A DNA stretch of 8,656 nt from Candidatus Lindowiibacteriota bacterium (GTDB lineage Bacteria > Lindowbacteria > 2-12-FULL-62-27), in the NCBI GenBank assembly GCA_023249255.1, contig JAHFCY010000144.1, positions 1 through 8,656 of the forward strand. Reading direction: 5' to 3'. Position numbers and translations under genes: made by a program. Each line of letters begins with the position of its first letter. The stretch's first letter is position 1. Shown here piece after piece: positions 2-8,656 of the stretch. The notes beneath the pieces were generated by a model, which saw only the letters and a list, made by a program, of their open reading frames with translations, had not been told where the DNA came from and ran no database searches.

Positions 2-2011
2 ATGGCCGGCAAGATTGCAGATCTCACGGCCGATATGAACGCCGGCTGGAAAGACCGTTTTTTCTGGCCGGTTTTGCGCGACCTGTATTATCCCGAGGGA
101 AACGGATACGGCGTGGCGGCCAATACGTTCTGGGGCGTGCCGATTTCAGCTCAAAATATGCAGATTTTCTACAATCGCGACCTCTTCGCCCGCGCGGGAT
201 TGAATCCCGACAAACCGCCCCGCACATGGCCGGAATTTCTCGACACGTGCCGGACACTCAAGTCAGGCGGAATCGTTCCGTTCATTTCCGGATTCGGCGA
301 TCTCTGGATGAACGAGGCATTCCATGACGTCTACGCGTGGCATTACAACGGGGAGGACGGCATCCGGGAAACCATCACCGGCAAACGTTCGTACCAGTCC
401 CCCGAGTGGCGAAAGTCATTCGAGCGGATATCGGACCTTGCGCCTTACACCGCAAAGGGCGTGGTGGGCATTCCAAACAAGGACGCCGAGCGCGCATTCT
501 GCGACAGCCAGGCGGCCATGGCTTTGAACGGTTCGTGGGCCGTCAACGTCTACCGGCAGATGAATCCCGGCTTGAAATTCGGCGTGATGTCCTTCCCGGT
601 CGATCCGTCGGCCACTCATCCGCTCTTTCTTCGCGGCGGCGTGGGAGCGGCCATTGCCGTTACCGCGAACAGCCCGAACCGCGCCGAGTCCATCCGCTTC
701 TTGAAATGGCTGACCGACCGGCCGCAGATGCTCGCGCTTGCGCGGGAAGGATCGGACATCCCCGCGAACAAGGACGTGCTGGGCGAAATCGAAGATCCGG
801 TTCTCAAACAATTTTGCGCCGGGCTCGACTCGCTCATGCCGGGTCTTCAGATGAGCGAACCCGGGGAAGTTCACAACGAGATTTCCCGGGGCGTGCAGTC
901 GATTCTCTCCGGACAGGAATCCAACATGGACCGGGTCCTCGAACGGATTCAGACGCTCAAAACCAAACTCGTCGACCAGAATGCCCGCATGGCGAACTTG
1001 CAGGTCAATCCGGAACACAGTGAGCGGATGTTCCTCTGGAGCATCTTCGCCGTCGTCGCGGCCGCCGCCGCCGGTGTTGCATGGAAAATGAAATGGACCG
1101 GCGACAAAATTTCGTCCGGAGCCGCCGAGGCGTGGCGGAGCCGCGGCATTTATGTATTTCTCGCGCCCGCCCTGCTGATCTACCTCGTCTTCGGCTTGTA
1201 TCCGTTCATCAAGACGTTCCTGTTGAGCTTTTACAGCTGGGACGGCCTGTCGGAGAACGTGGCGTTTGTCGGCTGGCAAAATTATATCAACGCCCTGACC
1301 GACGATCCGGCATTTTGGAGTTCGATGTGGCACGCGGTCCTCATCGCGATCGCCGCCCTCACCTTGCAGAACGGCGTGGCGCTTCTTCTGGCCCTGATCG
1401 TCGACGGAGACATTCGCGGGAAAAACATTTACAAACTGATTCTCTACGTCCCGCCGATTTTGTCCGTGATCGTCGTGGGGCTGGTATGGCGGTGGATTTT
1501 CGGAAGCGACGAGACGACGGGATTGTTCAACCAGCTTCTGGCCGCGGTCGGACTCAAGCGTCTCGCGGCGGCATGGCTCGGCGAACCCGGACTCGCCCTG
1601 GCGAGCGTGATTTTCGTCCAGTGCTGGCAGGGGTTTGGCAACGCGTTCCTTCTGTTTCTCGCGGGACTCCAGACGATTCCGGAGGAACTCTACGAAGCCG
1701 CATCGATCGACGGAGCGCGCGGATGGAGCCGGTTCCGCCACATCACGTTTCCGATGCTCTTCCCGGTCCTCGCCATCATCTCGATTCTGACGATCCTGGG
1801 CACGATGCAAACCTTCGCGCTGGTCATGGCCATGACTGACGGCGGACCGGTCGGTGCGACGGAAGTTCCGGTGAGCGTGATCTACAAGGCGGCGTTCGAG
1901 AATTTCAAGTTCGGGTATTCGACGGCGATGGCGGTGATTCTCGGACTGATCCTGATGGGACTGGCCTTTGTGCAGATCCAGATTTCAAAAAAAGCGTACA
2001 CGAAACATTAA
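2..2011 (+). CDS. Fused sugar-binding protein and MalF-type ABC permease (5' partial)
   Basis: This is the capture and first channel subunit of a CUT1 sugar importer in one chain; the reading frame is open to the window edge. Residues about 1-307 look like the C-terminal three quarters of a family 1 extracellular solute-binding protein (a WGVPISAQ stretch followed by FYNRDLF, and WPEFLD further on). A charged helical linker (about 308-340) leads to an extra membrane helix (343-361, rich in Ala/Val), then a basic loop (K362, K364, K369, R379, R381). MalF-type membrane helices start near residue 383. The EAA loop that docks on the ATPase starts at E565 (EAAxxDGA). The topology is consistent: binding domain outside, extra helix inward, basic loop in the cytoplasm, permease helix 1 outward. 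The ATG at base 2 is probably internal, since roughly 80-100 residues including any signal peptide are missing. SBP fusions are known in GlnPQ- and OpuA-type importers; to my knowledge they are less usual in this family. Confidence 0.92.
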   Translation: MAGKIADLTADMNAGWKDRFFWPVLRDLYYPEGNGYGVAANTFWGVPISAQNMQIFYNRDLFARAGLNPDKPPRTWPEFLDTCRTLKSGGIVPFISGFGDLWMNEAFHDVYAWHYNGEDGIRETITGKRSYQSPEWRKSFERISDLAPYTAKGVVGIPNKDAERAFCDSQAAMALNGSWAVNVYRQMNPGLKFGVMSFPVDPSATHPLFLRGGVGAAIAVTANSPNRAESIRFLKWLTDRPQMLALAREGSDIPANKDVLGEIEDPVLKQFCAGLDSLMPGLQMSEPGEVHNEISRGVQSILSGQESNMDRVLERIQTLKTKLVDQNARMANLQVNPEHSERMFLWSIFAVVAAAAAGVAWKMKWTGDKISSGAAEAWRSRGIYVFLAPALLIYLVFGLYPFIKTFLLSFYSWDGLSENVAFVGWQNYINALTDDPAFWSSMWHAVLIAIAALTLQNGVALLLALIVDGDIRGKNIYKLILYVPPILSVIVVGLVWRWIFGSDETTGLFNQLLAAVGLKRLAAAWLGEPGLALASVIFVQCWQGFGNAFLLFLAGLQTIPEELYEAASIDGARGWSRFRHITFPMLFPVLAIISILTILGTMQTFALVMAMTDGGPVGATEVPVSVIYKAAFENFKFGYSTAMAVILGLILMGLAFVQIQISKKAYTKH

Positions 2012-2026: not shown

Positions 2027-2869
2027 ATGAGGTATAAAATCGAAAATTTCATCCGGGGCGCGATGAGCCACATTCTTCTGTGGATGGTCAGCATCGTCTG
2101 CCTGTTCCCGCTGGTCTGGATGCTCTCGACCTCGTTCAAACGGATGGACGAAGTCAACACCAGCGTTCTGACGTTCTGGCCGAAGGAATTCCGGTTCGAC
2201 AATTACGTGACGGTCATTCGCGAAGCCCACTTCGGCCAGTATTTCATGAACAGCGTCTTCTACACCTCGCTCACGGTCCTCGGAGTCCTGACGTTCGCAT
2301 CCATGGCGGCGTTCGTTTTCAGCAAATTCAAATTCCCGGGCGACCGCCTCTTCTTCTACCTGTTCATCGGTTCGATGATGATCCCGATTCCCGGCGCGTT
2401 CATCCCGCTCTTCATCCTTCTCATCAAACTGAATCTTGTCAACACCAGACTTGGCCTGATCCTGCCGTACATCAACAGCGGCCTCGCGTTCGCGATTTAT
2501 CTTTTCAAAGGATTTTTCGACGAGATCCCGAACGAACTTCTGGAGGCCGCGGAACTGGACGGATGCACCAAATGGAAGGTCTACCGCATGATCATGATCC
2601 CGCTGGCGAAACCGATCCTGGCGACGGTGTCGATCTTCACCGCGATGGCCATCTGGAACGAATATCTTCTGGCGCTGGTGATCATGATCAGCCGGCCGGT
2701 CCTCTTTCCCCTGCAGGTGGGCATCATGAAATTCCAGGGCGTTCATATCACTGATTATCCGCACCTCATGGCCGGCATGGGTCTGGCGACCATTCCGATC
2801 CTCGTCATTTATCTTCTTCTGCAGAGATTCATGATCAAAGGCGTCACAGCCGGGGCGATCAAGGGATAG
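2027..2869 (+). CDS. MalG-type carbohydrate ABC transporter permease
   Basis: This is the second membrane subunit of the CUT1 sugar importer, pairing with the permease half of the upstream fusion to form the channel. Its 280 residues match the usual MalG family length. About six hydrophobic segments are visible (near 14-33, 72-97, 107-135, 142-164, 197-222 and 247-269). The cytoplasmic EAA loop begins at E173 (EAAELDG) and continues to a Pro-rich end (IPLAKP), which is the coupling helix contacting the ATPase. The C-terminus, with KG repeated around VTAGAIKG, is typical of the family. The start is set by a strong Shine-Dalgarno 15 bases after the previous stop. Two bases separate its stop from the GH130 gene. 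Nothing looks broken. The substrate cannot be read from the permease itself; the neighbouring GH130 enzyme suggests a mannoside. Confidence 0.96.
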   Translation: MRYKIENFIRGAMSHILLWMVSIVCLFPLVWMLSTSFKRMDEVNTSVLTFWPKEFRFDNYVTVIREAHFGQYFMNSVFYTSLTVLGVLTFASMAAFVFSKFKFPGDRLFFYLFIGSMMIPIPGAFIPLFILLIKLNLVNTRLGLILPYINSGLAFAIYLFKGFFDEIPNELLEAAELDGCTKWKVYRMIMIPLAKPILATVSIFTAMAIWNEYLLALVIMISRPVLFPLQVGIMKFQGVHITDYPHLMAGMGLATIPILVIYLLLQRFMIKGVTAGAIKG

Positions 2870-2871
2870 CG

Positions 2872-4119
2872 ATGGACGGATGCGGGACGGCGCGCGTGGA
2901 GGTTGAGCAATCGTCCGATCCTGTCCTCGTCCCCCGCGACGGATGTCCCTGGGCCGAGACGGCGGTTCTCAACCCGGCCATCGTCCGAGACGATGGGTCG
3001 GGCCTTCTGCACATGCTCTTCCGCGCAACCGGCCCATTCGATGGGAAATGGCCGGCAGGAAACGTCGCGCCCTATCCGATTTTTCTCGGATACGCGTCCA
3101 GCTCGGACGACGGCAGGACGTGGGATCCGGATTTTTCGCGACCGGCGCTGGCGCCCGCTCTGGAAAGCCGGATCGATCGGATGACCGTTACCGACTCGCA
3201 GGGGCGACGGGTCACCAACTTCGCCAACGGATGCATTGAAGATCCCCGGATCACGATCATCGACGGAACTGCATATCTATCGGCGGCAGGCCGGATGTTT
3301 CCGCCCGGCCCGTACTGGATTCACGACGATCCGATGCAGTGCGCGCCCGACTGGGCCCGACACGGCGATCATCCGTTCGGGCGGGAAGCGGCAGAAAACG
3401 TGACGGTCTCGGGGCTCTTCGAACTCGACCTCGACCGGCTGGCCGCCCGCGATTACGACGCGGCGTTCCGATACATCGGCCCCCTCACGGACGCGGAACT
3501 CGGAGACAACCGCGACGCATTTCTCTTTCCCGAACAGCTGAACATCCGCGGCCGAAACAAATTCGTCGCGCTCCACCGCCCCTGGAAAGGTTCGGGGTAT
3601 CCCGGCGGGCGGCCCGGCATGAAACCGTCCATCTGGATGGCCTGCGCAGACCGGATGGAGGATCTCGCGACGGGGCGGGCGACCCACCGTATTCTGGCCG
3701 AACCGGTTCTTGACTGGGAAGGCGACCGCATCGGCGCCAGCTGGCCGCCGATCCGCCTGTCTTCTTCGGAATGGCTCCTGCCATATCACGGCAAAATGGA
3801 CACCGTCACCGGATACACGCAATCATTTCTGATTTTGGACGCCGGGCGCGACGGATGGCCCGAAATCAAACACCGATGTTCCGATCGTCTGATGTACGCC
3901 CGCCACCCCTGGGAGCGGGATGAAAGCAAATTCAAAACGCCCTGCGTCTTCACGACCGCCGGATGCCTGGTCAACGGCACGCTGGTCATGTCATACGGCG
4001 CGGCGGATCTGAAGGTCGGCATCGGACGGGTCCGGTTTGAAGAACTCGTCCGTCATGTCCGAACCTTTGACGCGAGCGGGCACGAGATCGCTGGGAGGAT
4101 GACACGATGGCAGAGGTGA
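2872..4119 (+). CDS. GH130 family glycoside phosphorylase/hydrolase
   Basis: This is a 415-residue five-bladed beta-propeller enzyme of family GH130, lacking a signal peptide and so probably cytoplasmic. Characterised members phosphorolyse beta-mannosides (for example mannosyl-glucose to mannose 1-phosphate plus glucose), while others hydrolyse beta-1,2-mannosides. Landmarks in order: N34-P35-A36, R51-A52 (family YRA position), the catalytic-site motif E123-D124-P125-R126, LFPE at 218-221, H235-R236-P237, K251-P252-S253 before an IWMA stretch, Y305-H306-G307, and Y375-G376-A377-A378-D379 near the end. D124 aligns by motif with the general acid aspartate of mannosylglucose phosphorylase. The HRP motif and nearby basic residues fit phosphate binding, favouring a phosphorylase, but I cannot assign a subfamily or exact substrate. 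Some 415 residues is on the long side, with an insertion around 145-215. An AAGGGA inside the end of malG (2861-2866) may serve as ribosome site. The last 13 bases overlap the ATPase gene. Confidence 0.9.
   Translation: MDGCGTARVEVEQSSDPVLVPRDGCPWAETAVLNPAIVRDDGSGLLHMLFRATGPFDGKWPAGNVAPYPIFLGYASSSDDGRTWDPDFSRPALAPALESRIDRMTVTDSQGRRVTNFANGCIEDPRITIIDGTAYLSAAGRMFPPGPYWIHDDPMQCAPDWARHGDHPFGREAAENVTVSGLFELDLDRLAARDYDAAFRYIGPLTDAELGDNRDAFLFPEQLNIRGRNKFVALHRPWKGSGYPGGRPGMKPSIWMACADRMEDLATGRATHRILAEPVLDWEGDRIGASWPPIRLSSSEWLLPYHGKMDTVTGYTQSFLILDAGRDGWPEIKHRCSDRLMYARHPWERDESKFKTPCVFTTAGCLVNGTLVMSYGAADLKVGIGRVRFEELVRHVRTFDASGHEIAGRMTRWQR
4093..4099 (+). promoter_or_regulatory. Shine-Dalgarno site of the ATPase gene, inside GH130
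   Basis: GGGAGGA lies seven bases before the ATG at 4107 and sits inside the last codons of the GH130 gene. It supports this start and the real 13-base overlap between the two genes. Confidence 0.75.
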
Positions 4120-5219
4120 TATTGAAAAACGTCAGCAAGATTTATCCGGGCGGATACTGCGCCGTGCAGGACATCTCGATGGAAATCCGGGACAAGGAGT
4201 TCATGATTCTGGTCGGGCCGAGCGGCTGCGGGAAATCGACGACGCTGCGAATGATCGCGGGCCTCGAATCCATCAGTTCGGGCGATCTGTTGATCGACGG
4301 CAAACGGGTCAATGACGTGCCGGCGATGGACCGCGACATCGCGATGGTGTTTCAGAACTACGCCCTCTATCCGCACATGACGATCTTCGACAACATGGCT
4401 TTCAGCCTCCACATGCGCAAATATCCGAAAGCCGAGATCAAAAAGCGGGTCGAGGAGGCCGCGGAAATTCTGGGGCTGACGGCGGTTCTGGACCGAAAAC
4501 CGAAATCCCTCTCCGGCGGCCAGCGCCAGCGCGTCGCCGTCGGGCGCGCGATCGTCCGGAAACCCAAAGTGTTCTTATTTGACGAACCGTTGTCGAACCT
4601 CGACGCGGCGCTTCGAGTCCAGATGCGCGCGGAACTCAGCAACCTTCACCACCGCCTCCAGACCACGATGATCTACGTCACGCACGATCAGGTCGAGGCA
4701 ATGACGATGGGCGACCGGATCGCGGTCCTACATAAAGCCCGGATACAGCAGATTGACCGGCCGATGGCGCTCTATGACCGGCCGGCGAGCCAGTTCGTGG
4801 CCGGATTCATCGGAAGCCCCGCCATGAATTTTTTCCGGGGCAGGATCAAAGAGGTCAACAACGAAATGTTCCTTGAATCCGACGGATTTTCCCTCAAACT
4901 TCTGCCGCAGACCCGGGACTCCCTCGCGCGCGGCGGGCAGAATGTCACGGACGTGATGCTGGGCATCCGGCCCGAAGACGTGTACGACAAATTGTTCATT
5001 CCGGCTGCGGAGGACCGAAACGTCCTGCCGGCGACGGTGGATTTGGTGGAGCCGATGGGCGCCGAAATTTTCCTTCGTCTCCGATGCGGGGCGTATTCCA
5101 TCACCGCGCGGATGCGCAAGGACGTCACCGTGACGGTGGGGCAGGACATGGATCTGGTGCTGGACATGAAACGAATTCATCTCTTCGAGGCGGACTCCGG
5201 GCGAGCTCTGCTTTCATGA
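4107..5219 (+). CDS. Sugar ABC transporter ATPase, MsmX/UgpC/MalK type
   Basis: This ATPase powers the importer encoded just upstream; in this family two copies bind the EAA loops of the two permeases on the cytoplasmic face. All motifs are intact: Walker A G37-T45 (GPSGCGKST), Q-loop Q83, signature LSGGQ 135-139, Walker B ending D159 with catalytic E160, D-loop S163-D166 and switch histidine H193. The C-terminal part from about 235 is the TOBE/OB regulatory fold, including the GIRPED motif at 286-291. At 370 residues it is full length. Many MsmX-type ATPases serve several importers, but here the gene lies inside the operon, so a dedicated role is likely. Translation begins from a Shine-Dalgarno inside GH130, and the stop TGA (5217-5219) overlaps the ATG of the next gene, a diguanylate cyclase. 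Confidence 0.97.
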   Translation: MAEVILKNVSKIYPGGYCAVQDISMEIRDKEFMILVGPSGCGKSTTLRMIAGLESISSGDLLIDGKRVNDVPAMDRDIAMVFQNYALYPHMTIFDNMAFSLHMRKYPKAEIKKRVEEAAEILGLTAVLDRKPKSLSGGQRQRVAVGRAIVRKPKVFLFDEPLSNLDAALRVQMRAELSNLHHRLQTTMIYVTHDQVEAMTMGDRIAVLHKARIQQIDRPMALYDRPASQFVAGFIGSPAMNFFRGRIKEVNNEMFLESDGFSLKLLPQTRDSLARGGQNVTDVMLGIRPEDVYDKLFIPAAEDRNVLPATVDLVEPMGAEIFLRLRCGAYSITARMRKDVTVTVGQDMDLVLDMKRIHLFEADSGRALLS

Positions 5220-6586
5220 TTCGTTTTCAGTTCGACGAAACGCGGATATCGATCCATCCCGAAACCGTATACGCAGCCGTGGCCGTGTTCTGCGCCGCGT
5301 TTCTGGCGGCCGTCGGCGCCGCGTCAACGCTTGGCGGCATCGAATTCCACCGCCTTCAGCCGCTCCTGATTTTGCCGATCCTTGCGGCGACATTTGCATT
5401 CGGCGGCGCCGGCGCGGGGTTTTGCGCGGGCATCGCGCTGATCTCGGGTCTTGCGCCCATCGTCCTGACCGACGGCGCGCCCAAACTCCTCTACGCCGGC
5501 CAGACGGCCGTCCTGTGTCTCATTGCGTGGGGAGCGCGGCAGATCGTCTCGGCCCGGCAAGACCGGCAGATCCAGCACTACAACTTCCTCAATCACCGCA
5601 AAGGCGAAGTCGATTTTCTCGCGGCGTGGCTTGAAACGGAACGATCCATGGCCGGTCTGTTGCGCGACAAAGCCGGGCAGTGGGAGCGACTGGACAGCGT
5701 GGTCCACGCCGTCACGGCGAGCCTCTTCCCCAAGCGCGTGGTGGAAATTCTGAAGAATAAAACGCGGGCGCTCTTTCCGGATTTCGATGTGTCGCTCGAG
5801 TTGAAAACGGACGCCGGCGCGCGTGACGCGGCCGAACGGCCGATTCTCGATTGGATCATCAACCGCAACGAAACCATTCTGATCCCGGACATCACAAACG
5901 ATTTCCGGTTCCGCCATCTTGACGGCAAAGTGCCGTTTCGTTCGTTCATCGGCGTGCCGATTCTCGAAGAGGGCGCGCCGGTCGGCGTCCTGTCGGTTTC
6001 GAACACGAAGCCGGGAACGGTCGACATGGACCACCTCCGGCTCCTCTACAAATTTTCGGAAATTGCGGGCGTCATTCTGCGAAACGCGGATATTTACAAA
6101 AAAACCGACCACCTCGGCCGCATCGACGGCCTGACCGGCCTCTATAAGCGCTGGTACGTCCAGACCCGTCTTGACGAATTGAGCCGGGCGGTCCGGCGCA
6201 ACGCCACGCCGCTTTCGGTCGTCATGAGCGACATTGATTTTTTCAAAAGCGTCAACGACCGGTTCGGCCATCAGGAAGGCGACCGCGTGCTGACGGCCGT
6301 CGGTGAAATTTTCCGCGCGGCGTTCGAAGAACGGGGCATCACAGGGCGGTACGGCGGAGAGGAATTCATCGCGGTCGTTCCGCAGACGCAGGCCGGGGAC
6401 GCCCGGGAGTTGGCGGAATCCTATCGAGCCGCCATCGCGGGCCGGACCGACATCGGCGTGACGGTCTCCTGCGGCGTCGCGGTGTATCCCCACTCCTGCG
6501 CCGATCCGGATCGCCTGATCGATTTTGCCGACCGCGCGCTCTACCGCGCGAAGGAATCGGGACGCAACCGCGTGGTGATGGACTGA
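5216..6586 (+). CDS. Membrane diguanylate cyclase: 4 TM, GAF, GGDEF
   Basis: It probably makes cyclic di-GMP from two GTP at the inner membrane. I chose the ATG at 5216, which overlaps the ATPase stop (ATGA), over an open frame reaching back to 5084, because the first membrane helix starts near residue 18 and the earlier part is out-of-frame ATPase coding. The 456 residues hold four hydrophobic segments (about 18-39, 48-63, 66-84, 90-111; reminiscent of the DUF4118 sensor domain of KdpD), a helical linker, a GAF domain (about 160-296, with RSFIGVPI) and a GGDEF domain (about 298-456). Catalytic features are present: D304 of DGLTGL, metal ligand D339 in SDIDFFK, NDRFGH, and G380-F384 (GGEEF) preceded by RY. 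The inhibitory RxxD site is missing: the matching positions are E371 and G374. The four-helix plus GAF plus GGDEF order recalls PelD, but PelD has a degenerate active site. No strong Shine-Dalgarno is visible, so translation is likely coupled to the ATPase. Confidence 0.92.
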   Translation: MIRFQFDETRISIHPETVYAAVAVFCAAFLAAVGAASTLGGIEFHRLQPLLILPILAATFAFGGAGAGFCAGIALISGLAPIVLTDGAPKLLYAGQTAVLCLIAWGARQIVSARQDRQIQHYNFLNHRKGEVDFLAAWLETERSMAGLLRDKAGQWERLDSVVHAVTASLFPKRVVEILKNKTRALFPDFDVSLELKTDAGARDAAERPILDWIINRNETILIPDITNDFRFRHLDGKVPFRSFIGVPILEEGAPVGVLSVSNTKPGTVDMDHLRLLYKFSEIAGVILRNADIYKKTDHLGRIDGLTGLYKRWYVQTRLDELSRAVRRNATPLSVVMSDIDFFKSVNDRFGHQEGDRVLTAVGEIFRAAFEERGITGRYGGEEFIAVVPQTQAGDARELAESYRAAIAGRTDIGVTVSCGVAVYPHSCADPDRLIDFADRALYRAKESGRNRVVMD

Positions 6587-6588
6587 CC

Positions 6589-7680
6589 GTGTGGGTCCTC
6601 TGGATTCTGGCCGCGGGCATCGGAAGCGCGATTTTTTTCTACGTCGAGCGACATCTGGCGGCGGAACAGCGTCAGTGGTTTCTGGCGGCGCTGTACCGGC
6701 TCGACGAAGACGAGCGCCGTCTGACGGCGGAACTCAATCTGACGAAGACGATCCAGGACGGCTTCCGCGCCAAAACCTCGCGCTTGCGAAAACAATATCA
6801 GCTCGTGTCCCTCCTCGCCAAAACACTCAACATCGAACAGTCATGCCGGCGGATCGGCGATTTTTTAAAAACAGAACTGCCGGAAATTCAGGGCCGGCTC
6901 GAATTTTCCTGCGCAACGAAATCCTATGCCTACGATGTCGCATCCGGAGAGTTCGGACCGGCGCGCGGCGGACCGGAGGGAGACGACACCATCCCGGGGC
7001 GGGTGATTTTGCCGCTGGTCTACGGCGAACGAAAACTGGCTGACCTCATCGTGTGGCTGCCGTCCGTGAATGCGCCGGACGCGCCATTCACCGCATCGGA
7101 CATTGAATCTATTCGCGCTTACGTCGGCCAGATTCAGATGACGTTCGCGACAGCGATCCTCTACGAGGAATCCAGAATTCGGGCCGTCACCGACGCGCTG
7201 ACCGGAAGCGCCGCCCGATGGTACTTCGACGACCGGCTCCGCCAGGACATCCGGCTGGCGCAAACGTCCGGACAACCCTGCGGCCTCATCATGATCGACA
7301 TCGACCATTTCAAACAGATCAACGACAGATTTGGCCACGTCTTCGGCGACGAAGTCCTGCGCGGGGTCAGCGCGGCGATTCTCAAAACCTGCCGCGAATC
7401 GGATCTTGTGGCAAGATACGGAGGCGAGGAATTCGCCGTCATCGCGCCGGCGATCAACCGCGAGCATCTGATCCATCTTGCGGAACGGTGCCGGACTGCC
7501 GTCGAATCGCGTACGTTTCCTTCGCCGACCGACGGAACTGAAATCCACGCAACGATCAGCCTTGGAGTTGCCCTCTGGGACAAACCCATCCACGCCGACG
7601 CATCCGGCCTCATCGCCGCCGCCGACAAAAACCTCTACGCCGCCAAACACGCCGGACGAAACCGCGTCGAAATTCGTTGA
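6589..7680 (+). CDS. Membrane diguanylate cyclase: 1 TM, coiled coil, GAF-like, GGDEF
   Basis: This is a second probable c-di-GMP synthase, starting with GTG only two bases after the previous stop; no in-frame ATG occurs until near residue 180, so GTG is the best start. The 363 residues begin with one membrane helix (about 3-19), then a charged helical region likely to be a coiled coil (about 22-75), a GAF-like region (about 75-195, weaker match) and a GGDEF domain (about 200-363). The active site looks intact: DALTG near 202, metal ligand D237 in MIDIDHFK, NDRFGH, and G278-F282 (GGEEF). An inhibitory I-site R269-x-x-D272 sits the canonical five residues before GGEEF, unlike the upstream cyclase. 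One oddity is S instead of L after DALTG. Its N-terminal half differs from the upstream protein, so this is not a simple recent duplication. No clear Shine-Dalgarno is visible, which fits translational coupling. Confidence 0.9.
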   Translation: MWVLWILAAGIGSAIFFYVERHLAAEQRQWFLAALYRLDEDERRLTAELNLTKTIQDGFRAKTSRLRKQYQLVSLLAKTLNIEQSCRRIGDFLKTELPEIQGRLEFSCATKSYAYDVASGEFGPARGGPEGDDTIPGRVILPLVYGERKLADLIVWLPSVNAPDAPFTASDIESIRAYVGQIQMTFATAILYEESRIRAVTDALTGSAARWYFDDRLRQDIRLAQTSGQPCGLIMIDIDHFKQINDRFGHVFGDEVLRGVSAAILKTCRESDLVARYGGEEFAVIAPAINREHLIHLAERCRTAVESRTFPSPTDGTEIHATISLGVALWDKPIHADASGLIAAADKNLYAAKHAGRNRVEIR

Positions 7681-7703: not shown

Positions 7704-7728
7704 GAATCCCCCGACCGTGACCCCATGA
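7699..7728 (+). CDS. Possible 9-codon leader peptide before the SGNH gene
   Basis: An ATG in repeat copy 1 opens a frame for MTNPPTVTP and stops at TGA 7726-7728, overlapping the ATG (7725) of the SGNH gene as ATGA. A weak Shine-Dalgarno-like GGGTGAAG lies at 7682-7689, nine bases ahead, whereas the SGNH start has nothing comparable of its own. Reading of this mini-frame could therefore deliver ribosomes to the SGNH start. The frame is very short and could be chance. No function is claimed for the peptide itself. Confidence 0.25.
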   Translation: MTNPPTVTP

Positions 7729-7729
7729 C
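7716..7729 (+). repeat. 14-base direct repeat, copy 2 of 2
   Basis: This is an exact copy of the element at 7690-7703. Its ATG (7725-7727) is the start codon of the SGNH hydrolase gene, so the repeat spans the translation start. The two ATGs differ by 26 bases and therefore lie in different frames. Confidence 0.9.
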
Positions 7730-8656
7730 CAAAAAACTCGCCCTGGCCGCCGCATCGGTCGTCGTATCCGCCCTTCTGTGCGAAATCTATCTCCGCACTT
7801 TTCCACCGAAGGAATTTCAGCGGCTCGACAATTTGTATTCCCTCATGAAACCGGATGACCTTCTCGGCTACTCGATGAGACCCAACACGCGAGGGATGGT
7901 GCTTAGCGAGGACGGCAACTCCGAATATCTCGTCGAACTCAACGAGCACGGACTTCGCGACGCGGCCTACGCCGGCAAACGGGGCCGGCGCACCATCCTG
8001 GGGCTCGGTGATTCCTTTCTCTTTGCCGAGAGCGTCAACAGGGAAGATGCCCTGATGGCTGTGCTCCAGAACCTGCTGGAAGCCGGACATCCCGGGCGGT
8101 TTGGGACGATGAATGCAGGCGTGCCCGGGTACTCGACCAATCAGGAAATCCTCTATTATCTGACGCGGGGCGACCGCGATTTCGATCCCGACATCGTCAT
8201 CCTCTTTTTTTACATCAACGACTTCGCGCTGTACGTGAAGAATTATTCCGGCGCGAAGTGGTTCGACGGAATTCCCGTCCCCGACGATGCCGAAAAGTTG
8301 CCGGTCCGCTGGGAAAAAGACAGTCCCTTCCAGACATGGAAATTTATTCGTTACTGGGAAAAAAAGAGAAATCAGGCAAACCAGGTCACCGGGCGGCCGA
8401 CTCGGAAATCGCCGGTATTGGGTGGTGAACCAAAAATGTTCAATCGCGAGTGGGACGCCTTCCAAACCCTGCAATTTCATAATCTGGAAATCATGCTGGA
8501 CATCCTCAAAGCCAAAATCCGGGGAAACGACGCCAAATTGATGCTTGTGTATCTTCCGTCCTCAACCGAGATAGAACCGGGTCCGATCCGAATCGATAAT
8601 CTGACCCGGCACTCCTATCCCGTGTCGAGCTGGGACTGGGATTTGCCCAGCCATGA
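7725..8656 (+). CDS. Membrane-anchored SGNH/GDSL hydrolase family protein (3' partial)
   Basis: I translated this frame by hand; it stays open for 310 codons to the window edge. The N-terminus (MTKKLALAAASVVVSALLCEIYLR) is a signal-anchor of the type common in envelope SGNH proteins, placing the rest outside the cytoplasm. SGNH landmarks follow: GLGDSF with nucleophile S97 (block I), NAGVPGYSTNQE starting at N130 with G132/G135 (block II), and FFYIND with N165-D166 (block III). The block V Asp-His pair should lie beyond the edge. The family includes esterases and acetyltransferase-like proteins; relatives (AlgJ/AlgX type) acetylate exopolysaccharides next to MBOAT acyltransferases, but that role here is inference. 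An in-frame stop at 7692-7694 and no other start codon between fix ATG 7725. Part of the gene (about 8320-8420) is more A-rich than the rest of the window. Confidence 0.87.
   Translation, partial: MTKKLALAAASVVVSALLCEIYLRTFPPKEFQRLDNLYSLMKPDDLLGYSMRPNTRGMVLSEDGNSEYLVELNEHGLRDAAYAGKRGRRTILGLGDSFLFAESVNREDALMAVLQNLLEAGHPGRFGTMNAGVPGYSTNQEILYYLTRGDRDFDPDIVILFFYINDFALYVKNYSGAKWFDGIPVPDDAEKLPVRWEKDSPFQTWKFIRYWEKKRNQANQVTGRPTRKSPVLGGEPKMFNREWDAFQTLQFHNLEIMLDILKAKIRGNDAKLMLVYLPSSTEIEPGPIRIDNLTRHSYPVSSWDWDLPSH

Follow-up and report, generated by a model that had tools for sequence, protein, structure and literature searches.

A joined receptor and permease gene in a sugar importer locus

The window analysed is the entire contig C129 (8,656 nucleotides) of a Candidatus Lindowiibacteriota genome whose assembly is fragmented (3.35 Mb in 366 contigs, 88.7% complete). 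It carries the genes of an ABC sugar importer, in which a binding protein (SBP) and a MalF-type permease share a single frame. The features are as follows:

2..2011, + strand: SBP-TM0-MalF fusion, visible part (669 of 776 codons), the other 107 codons lying on contig C219
2..1000, + strand: binding-protein domain SBP_bac_1/SBP_bac_8 (Pfam); end approximate, first part and signal peptide outside the window
1028..1084, + strand: TM0 (MFLWSIFAVVAAAAAGVAW), residues 343-361, predicted to run out-to-in (hydropathy; counterpart in 30/30 fused proteins)
1085..1153, + strand: basic loop (KMKWTGDKISSGAAEAWRSRGIY), predicted cytoplasmic (5 K/R against 2 D/E)
1154..2008, + strand: MalF/UgpA-type permease domain, BPD_transp_1 (Pfam; NCBIfam best model UgpA)
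1694..1753, + strand: EAA coupling motif (EAASIDGARGWSRFRHITFP), read from the sequence and containing invariant and near-invariant alignment columns
2027..2869, + strand: MalG-type permease subunit, partner of the fusion (Pfam; NCBIfam MalG/GlcU/UgpE; GGGGAGGAG site)
2872..4119, + strand: GH130-like protein, distant from mannoside phosphorylases (Pfam E 2e-10; PDB 1,2-beta-oligomannan phosphorylase E 6e-16)
4107..5219, + strand: MalK/UgpC-type ATPase with the GIRPED CUT1 motif, LSGGQ and Walker A (Pfam, NCBIfam, motif reading)

Bases 2-2011 are free of stops over 669 codons and hold both receptor and permease, namely SBP_bac_1 at residues 3-240 (E 2e-20, profile 68-303) and BPD_transp_1 at residues 469-654 (E 4e-14), with both matches exceeding the Pfam cut-offs. 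Hydropathy analysis places six further hydrophobic segments beside TM0, and the basic loop spans 23 residues (362-384) before the first core helix.

The gene does not in fact begin with the methionine at base 2. The window opens with 36 bases that contig C219 also has, in reverse, as its own first 36, this 36-mer being unique in the genome. A Pfam search of the genome found, at the C219 edge, a fragment of an SBP N-terminus covering profile positions 5-75, and the window takes up the profile at position 68. The joined frame, for which this one overlap is unique and in frame, begins 321 bases earlier with an ATG behind AGGAG and encodes 776 residues. Recovery of the 5′ end, proposed in the original prediction as a check for a signal peptide or anchor, thereby yields a complete binding protein (profile 5 to 402 of 403) with an N-terminus (MNPTGIPRRSKFVLGVILCAEIALMGGRAAEG) that resembles a signal peptide and in which no lipobox was seen.

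In its components the importer is of the CUT1 type. The receptor gives a full-length SBP_bac_1 match in the joined protein, the fusion and MalG provide two dissimilar permease subunits with the EAA motif, and MalK has OB_MalK and TOBE domains (Pfam) together with GIRPED at residue 286, which agrees with G[IV]RPE[DH], the motif given for CUT1 ATPases (PMC11519228). Four separate gene products, a feature typical of CUT1 systems but not defining them, are not found here, as SBP and MalF form one frame. The stop codon of a GH99 gene overlaps the ATG of the fusion (ATGA), and the fusion therefore looks like part of a single operon in the order GH99, SBP-MalF, MalG, GH130-like and MalK.

Authenticity and distribution of the fusion

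The original prediction of one frame running through receptor and permease was accompanied by the caution that an error removing a stop or start near bases 920-1040 could have produced it. Some circumstances favour such an artefact, with the two genes being separate in the organism: the window is a contig of a fragmented assembly that is broken within the fusion gene, and several genomes hold SBP and MalF in frame with one to a few stops between them, where a single error could fuse the two. Third-position GC is, however, even over the junction (0.72-0.78 over bases 842-1201 in the fusion frame), and no in-frame start with a good ribosome-binding site was found near it, the best being a weak AGGA before ATG 926, which falls within the final stretch of the binding protein. 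An error would also not create a helix precisely where the topology requires one; all checked fusions have TM0, whereas unfused in-frame pairs show stops. Moreover, this genome contains a second gene of the same build (on contig C56, cut at the contig end and with MalG after it). An intact orthologue of that gene is present in G001, a genome from a different genus in the same family, and is 73% identical to it over 470 residues that take in SBP, helix and MalF; about 45 further genomes also have the architecture. An assembly or sequencing error behind the fusion appears very unlikely, to the point of being scarcely credible, and at the level of sequence the gene can be regarded as confirmed by its stop-free frame, its Pfam domains and the intact gene within the same taxonomic family.

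A profile built from ten fused proteins was searched against 386 bacterial genomes, and receptor-to-permease matches without a stop were counted. Uninterrupted fusions were found in about 47 of the 386 (~12%, about one in eight), belonging to 32 families (manual count of the table). Thirty distinct fused proteins were checked frame by frame, with the exclusion of read-through pairs that have an intervening stop. All 30 have a hydrophobic helix between receptor and permease (mean hydropathy 2.3, minimum 1.7), 29 have a net positive loop after it, and MalG lies directly downstream in 28, one of the other two being at a contig edge. These counts bear out the added helix and basic loop with a consistent predicted topology. 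Fused proteins from other bacteria (e.g., L033, L035, L036, and L047) are 24-29% identical to the window protein and share with it the order of signal peptide, SBP, TM0, basic loop and MalF, then MalG. Among the wide loci, those with an intact fusion yielded no stand-alone receptor, including in the operon, where one had been proposed as a point to look for, while those with an unfused MalF all contain a separate SBP.

A number of candidates were rejected. The apparent long frames of G047, G021, and G051 were found by a codon-by-codon check to read through stops, and rhizobial plasmid matches covering the entire protein in one piece turned out to be distinct genes divided by a stop. With plasmid relatives of two of the fused proteins, the annotated ones among the matches listed have separate receptor and permease features.

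With about an eighth of the sampled genomes possessing this architecture, the suggestion that it is unusual in the maltose-type family does not hold. As ordinary Pfam models recognise all ten aligned fused proteins, the SBP and MalF combination is probably already listed in domain-architecture databases. No description of a CUT1 receptor-permease fusion was found in the open-access literature searched, and one may exist elsewhere; the fusion is apparently a widespread and undescribed variant of CUT1 importers.

Recurrence of the fusion and its anchor helix

A tree of 63 MalF cores (30 fused, 33 unfused) needs nine changes between the fused and unfused states, at least seven of which are forced by well-supported branches. 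The trees reject a single fused clade (AU p about 1e-45 for the 63 cores), so that fusion, or splitting, seems to have happened several times over. In the tree the window's MalF falls among unfused MalFs, and its grouping with the other fused protein of the genome is rejected (p 0.0003). Its nearest MalF relative found (L104, 45%) begins at a contig edge and is probably unfused, because its start codon stands behind AAGGTGGG. Gains and losses are not distinguishable by the tree; repeated fusion of the canonical SBP-MalF gene order is the simpler reading, because several genomes hold SBP and MalF in frame only a few codons apart.

Each such join faced the same problem, in that the C-terminal end of the receptor lies outside the membrane and the N-terminal end of MalF inside it, and TM0 solves it. 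The added inward helix of the original prediction is upheld as a feature but is not without precedent, as TM2 of E. coli MalF (residues 40-58) occupies the equivalent position ahead of the conserved core, with a basic loop next and the core helix at residue 73. Because of this shared place and the loop after it, the anchor may have long belonged to some MalF proteins, TM0 and TM2 being alike in position, with the receptor replacing the first helix. Compared with E. coli MalF, the fusion has its receptor at the position of TM1 and TM0 in the slot of TM2, and it is without the large P2 loop, just 44 residues separating its first two core helices.

Locus L048 of genome G030 (L048:5173-7305) has an unfused MalF with a long N-terminal extension containing extra hydrophobic segments, which lies near the fused proteins L047 and L081 in the tree. 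This 711-residue frame was rejected as a fusion, its receptor being separate, and it could show how an anchor helix precedes fusion. A 511-residue frame (L049, genome G027) was also rejected, it being an unfused MalF with no SBP in its 5′ part and with its receptor in a separate frame.

The predicted tether, its likely cargo and neighbouring genes

It is highly probable, in our view, that the locus encodes a CUT1-type ABC sugar importer with a binding protein permanently tethered to its MalF subunit, where the tethering, the topology and the cargo are predictions from sequence. The signal peptide would take the N-terminus into the membrane and the binding domain would fold outside, after which a short linker and TM0 would return the chain across the membrane. 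In the predicted topology the basic loop would remain inside and a normal MalF core would come next, with its N-terminus in the usual place. MalG and two copies of MalK would complete the importer, giving one receptor to each, and this receptor would capture the sugar and dock on its own channel without diffusing. At the sequence level receptor and permease are covalently joined, and the one-to-one tether proposed originally is still the best reading, there being no stand-alone receptor in these operons.

Maltose systems normally have their receptor in 30-50-fold excess (PMC9045158). In OpuA, the osmolyte importer of Lactococcus lactis, an 11-residue linker has been estimated to give a receptor concentration of about 4 mM close to its site (PMC11065425), and with the same arithmetic longer linkers give 1.8 mM (16 residues) and 0.3 mM (33 residues). 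The linker of the window fusion has 9-33 residues depending on the end of the last SBP helix, which is at residue 333 in a weak AlphaFold model (mean pLDDT 52, 9-row alignment). A tether of this kind would approach the millimolar receptor levels that excess provides in free systems, with far less receptor protein and one receptor per channel.

CUT1 importers have been described as four separate gene products (2024 review, PMC11212667). E. coli MalEFGK2 and other CUT1 systems (UgpABCE) share with the present importer an SBP_bac_1 receptor, a heterodimeric MalF/MalG with EAA motifs and a MalK with an OB/TOBE domain and GIRPED motif; the fusion differs in joining receptor and MalF in one chain, which makes receptor excess impossible. 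Similar in principle are OpuA, where a short linker and a membrane-spanning anchor helix connect receptor and permease (PMC11065425), and GlnPQ, an amino acid importer of L. lactis in which a single chain contains both the receptor domains and the permease (PMC8025302). The fusion resembles the first in its short linker and membrane helix and the second in its single chain, but uses other parts, as the receptors and permeases of both belong to other families. OpuA has two covalently linked receptors per complex, and GlnPQ has two tandem receptors on a homodimer with a 19-residue linker. A homodimeric permease with two or four receptors is not what is found in the window, where a receptor-less MalG follows and a single receptor stands ahead of MalF in a MalF/MalG heterodimer. 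In OpuA the receptor follows its permease in the chain.

Two further readings accept the gene and dispute the tether. The polypeptide might be made as one and cut after insertion, releasing a free receptor and leaving TM0 as a stop-transfer remnant; this is compatible with the linker sequence and with the receptor excess usual in maltose systems, yet cleavage would keep the 1:1 stoichiometry and not restore that excess, and the alignment has no conserved linker motif, so we regard it as improbable. The fused receptor might otherwise serve mainly as a sensor or low-affinity gate, with cargo delivered by free receptors encoded elsewhere. The genome does possess two separate SBP_bac_1 proteins (C70, C151) besides its two fused ones (Pfam search), and, the assembly being 88.7% complete, this importer could have a stand-alone receptor in a part of the genome that the assembly lacks. 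The C70 receptor, however, adjoins its own permeases (locus L052), fused genes have no separate receptor beside them, the EAA motif of the permease is ordinary, and MalG and MalK adjoin. This second reading appears slightly less probable still.

Returning to a permanent tether, we lean, with some reserve, towards the broader view that receptor-MalF fusions are widespread, repeatedly evolved and undescribed, that they reuse the N-terminal helix slot of MalF as an anchor and that they provide exactly one receptor per channel. If true, many bacteria would import oligosaccharides with one receptor for each channel, against the textbook excess. A fused form present in so many of the sampled genomes, and arrived at several times with the same helix added, allows free and tethered receptors to be compared in nature inside a single transporter family, and so provides a test of the purpose of receptor excess. 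For annotation, it should be mentioned that searches for stand-alone receptors miss fused systems and that gene callers could split them wrongly.

The cargo is likely a mannoside, because GH99 and GH130-like enzymes flank the importer. The GH99 part matches endo-alpha-mannosidase structures (E 6e-21) and occupies the C-terminal half of a frame of 724 residues, counted between stops, on the minus strand of C219 (L100:356-2527), with no Pfam match in the N-terminal half. The GH130-like protein (415 residues) is the sole PF04041 protein found in the genome; its similarity to known GH130 enzymes is partial, lying mainly in the C-terminal half, and it may represent a distant subfamily.

Upstream of the GH99 gene there are four long frames of 512-1421 residues on the minus strand (L100:1411-5673, 5403-6938, 7015-10836, and 10811-14116), sitting between a LacI regulator farther upstream and the importer operon. 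Two of these match DUF6259, one of them weakly, and two are without any family; they are possibly unknown glycoside hydrolases. Two consecutive GGDEF diguanylate cyclases are present in the window (5216-6586 and 6589-7680), the first with a GAF domain, N-terminal hydrophobic segments and a likely ATG that overlaps the MalK stop, and a third, of GGDEF-PilZ type, lies upstream on C219 (L100:15175-16392). A link between the sugar locus and c-di-GMP signalling is possible. The window ends with a GDSL/SGNH-like hydrolase (7725-8654; weak Pfam match), which has an N-terminal hydrophobic segment and runs off the contig end.
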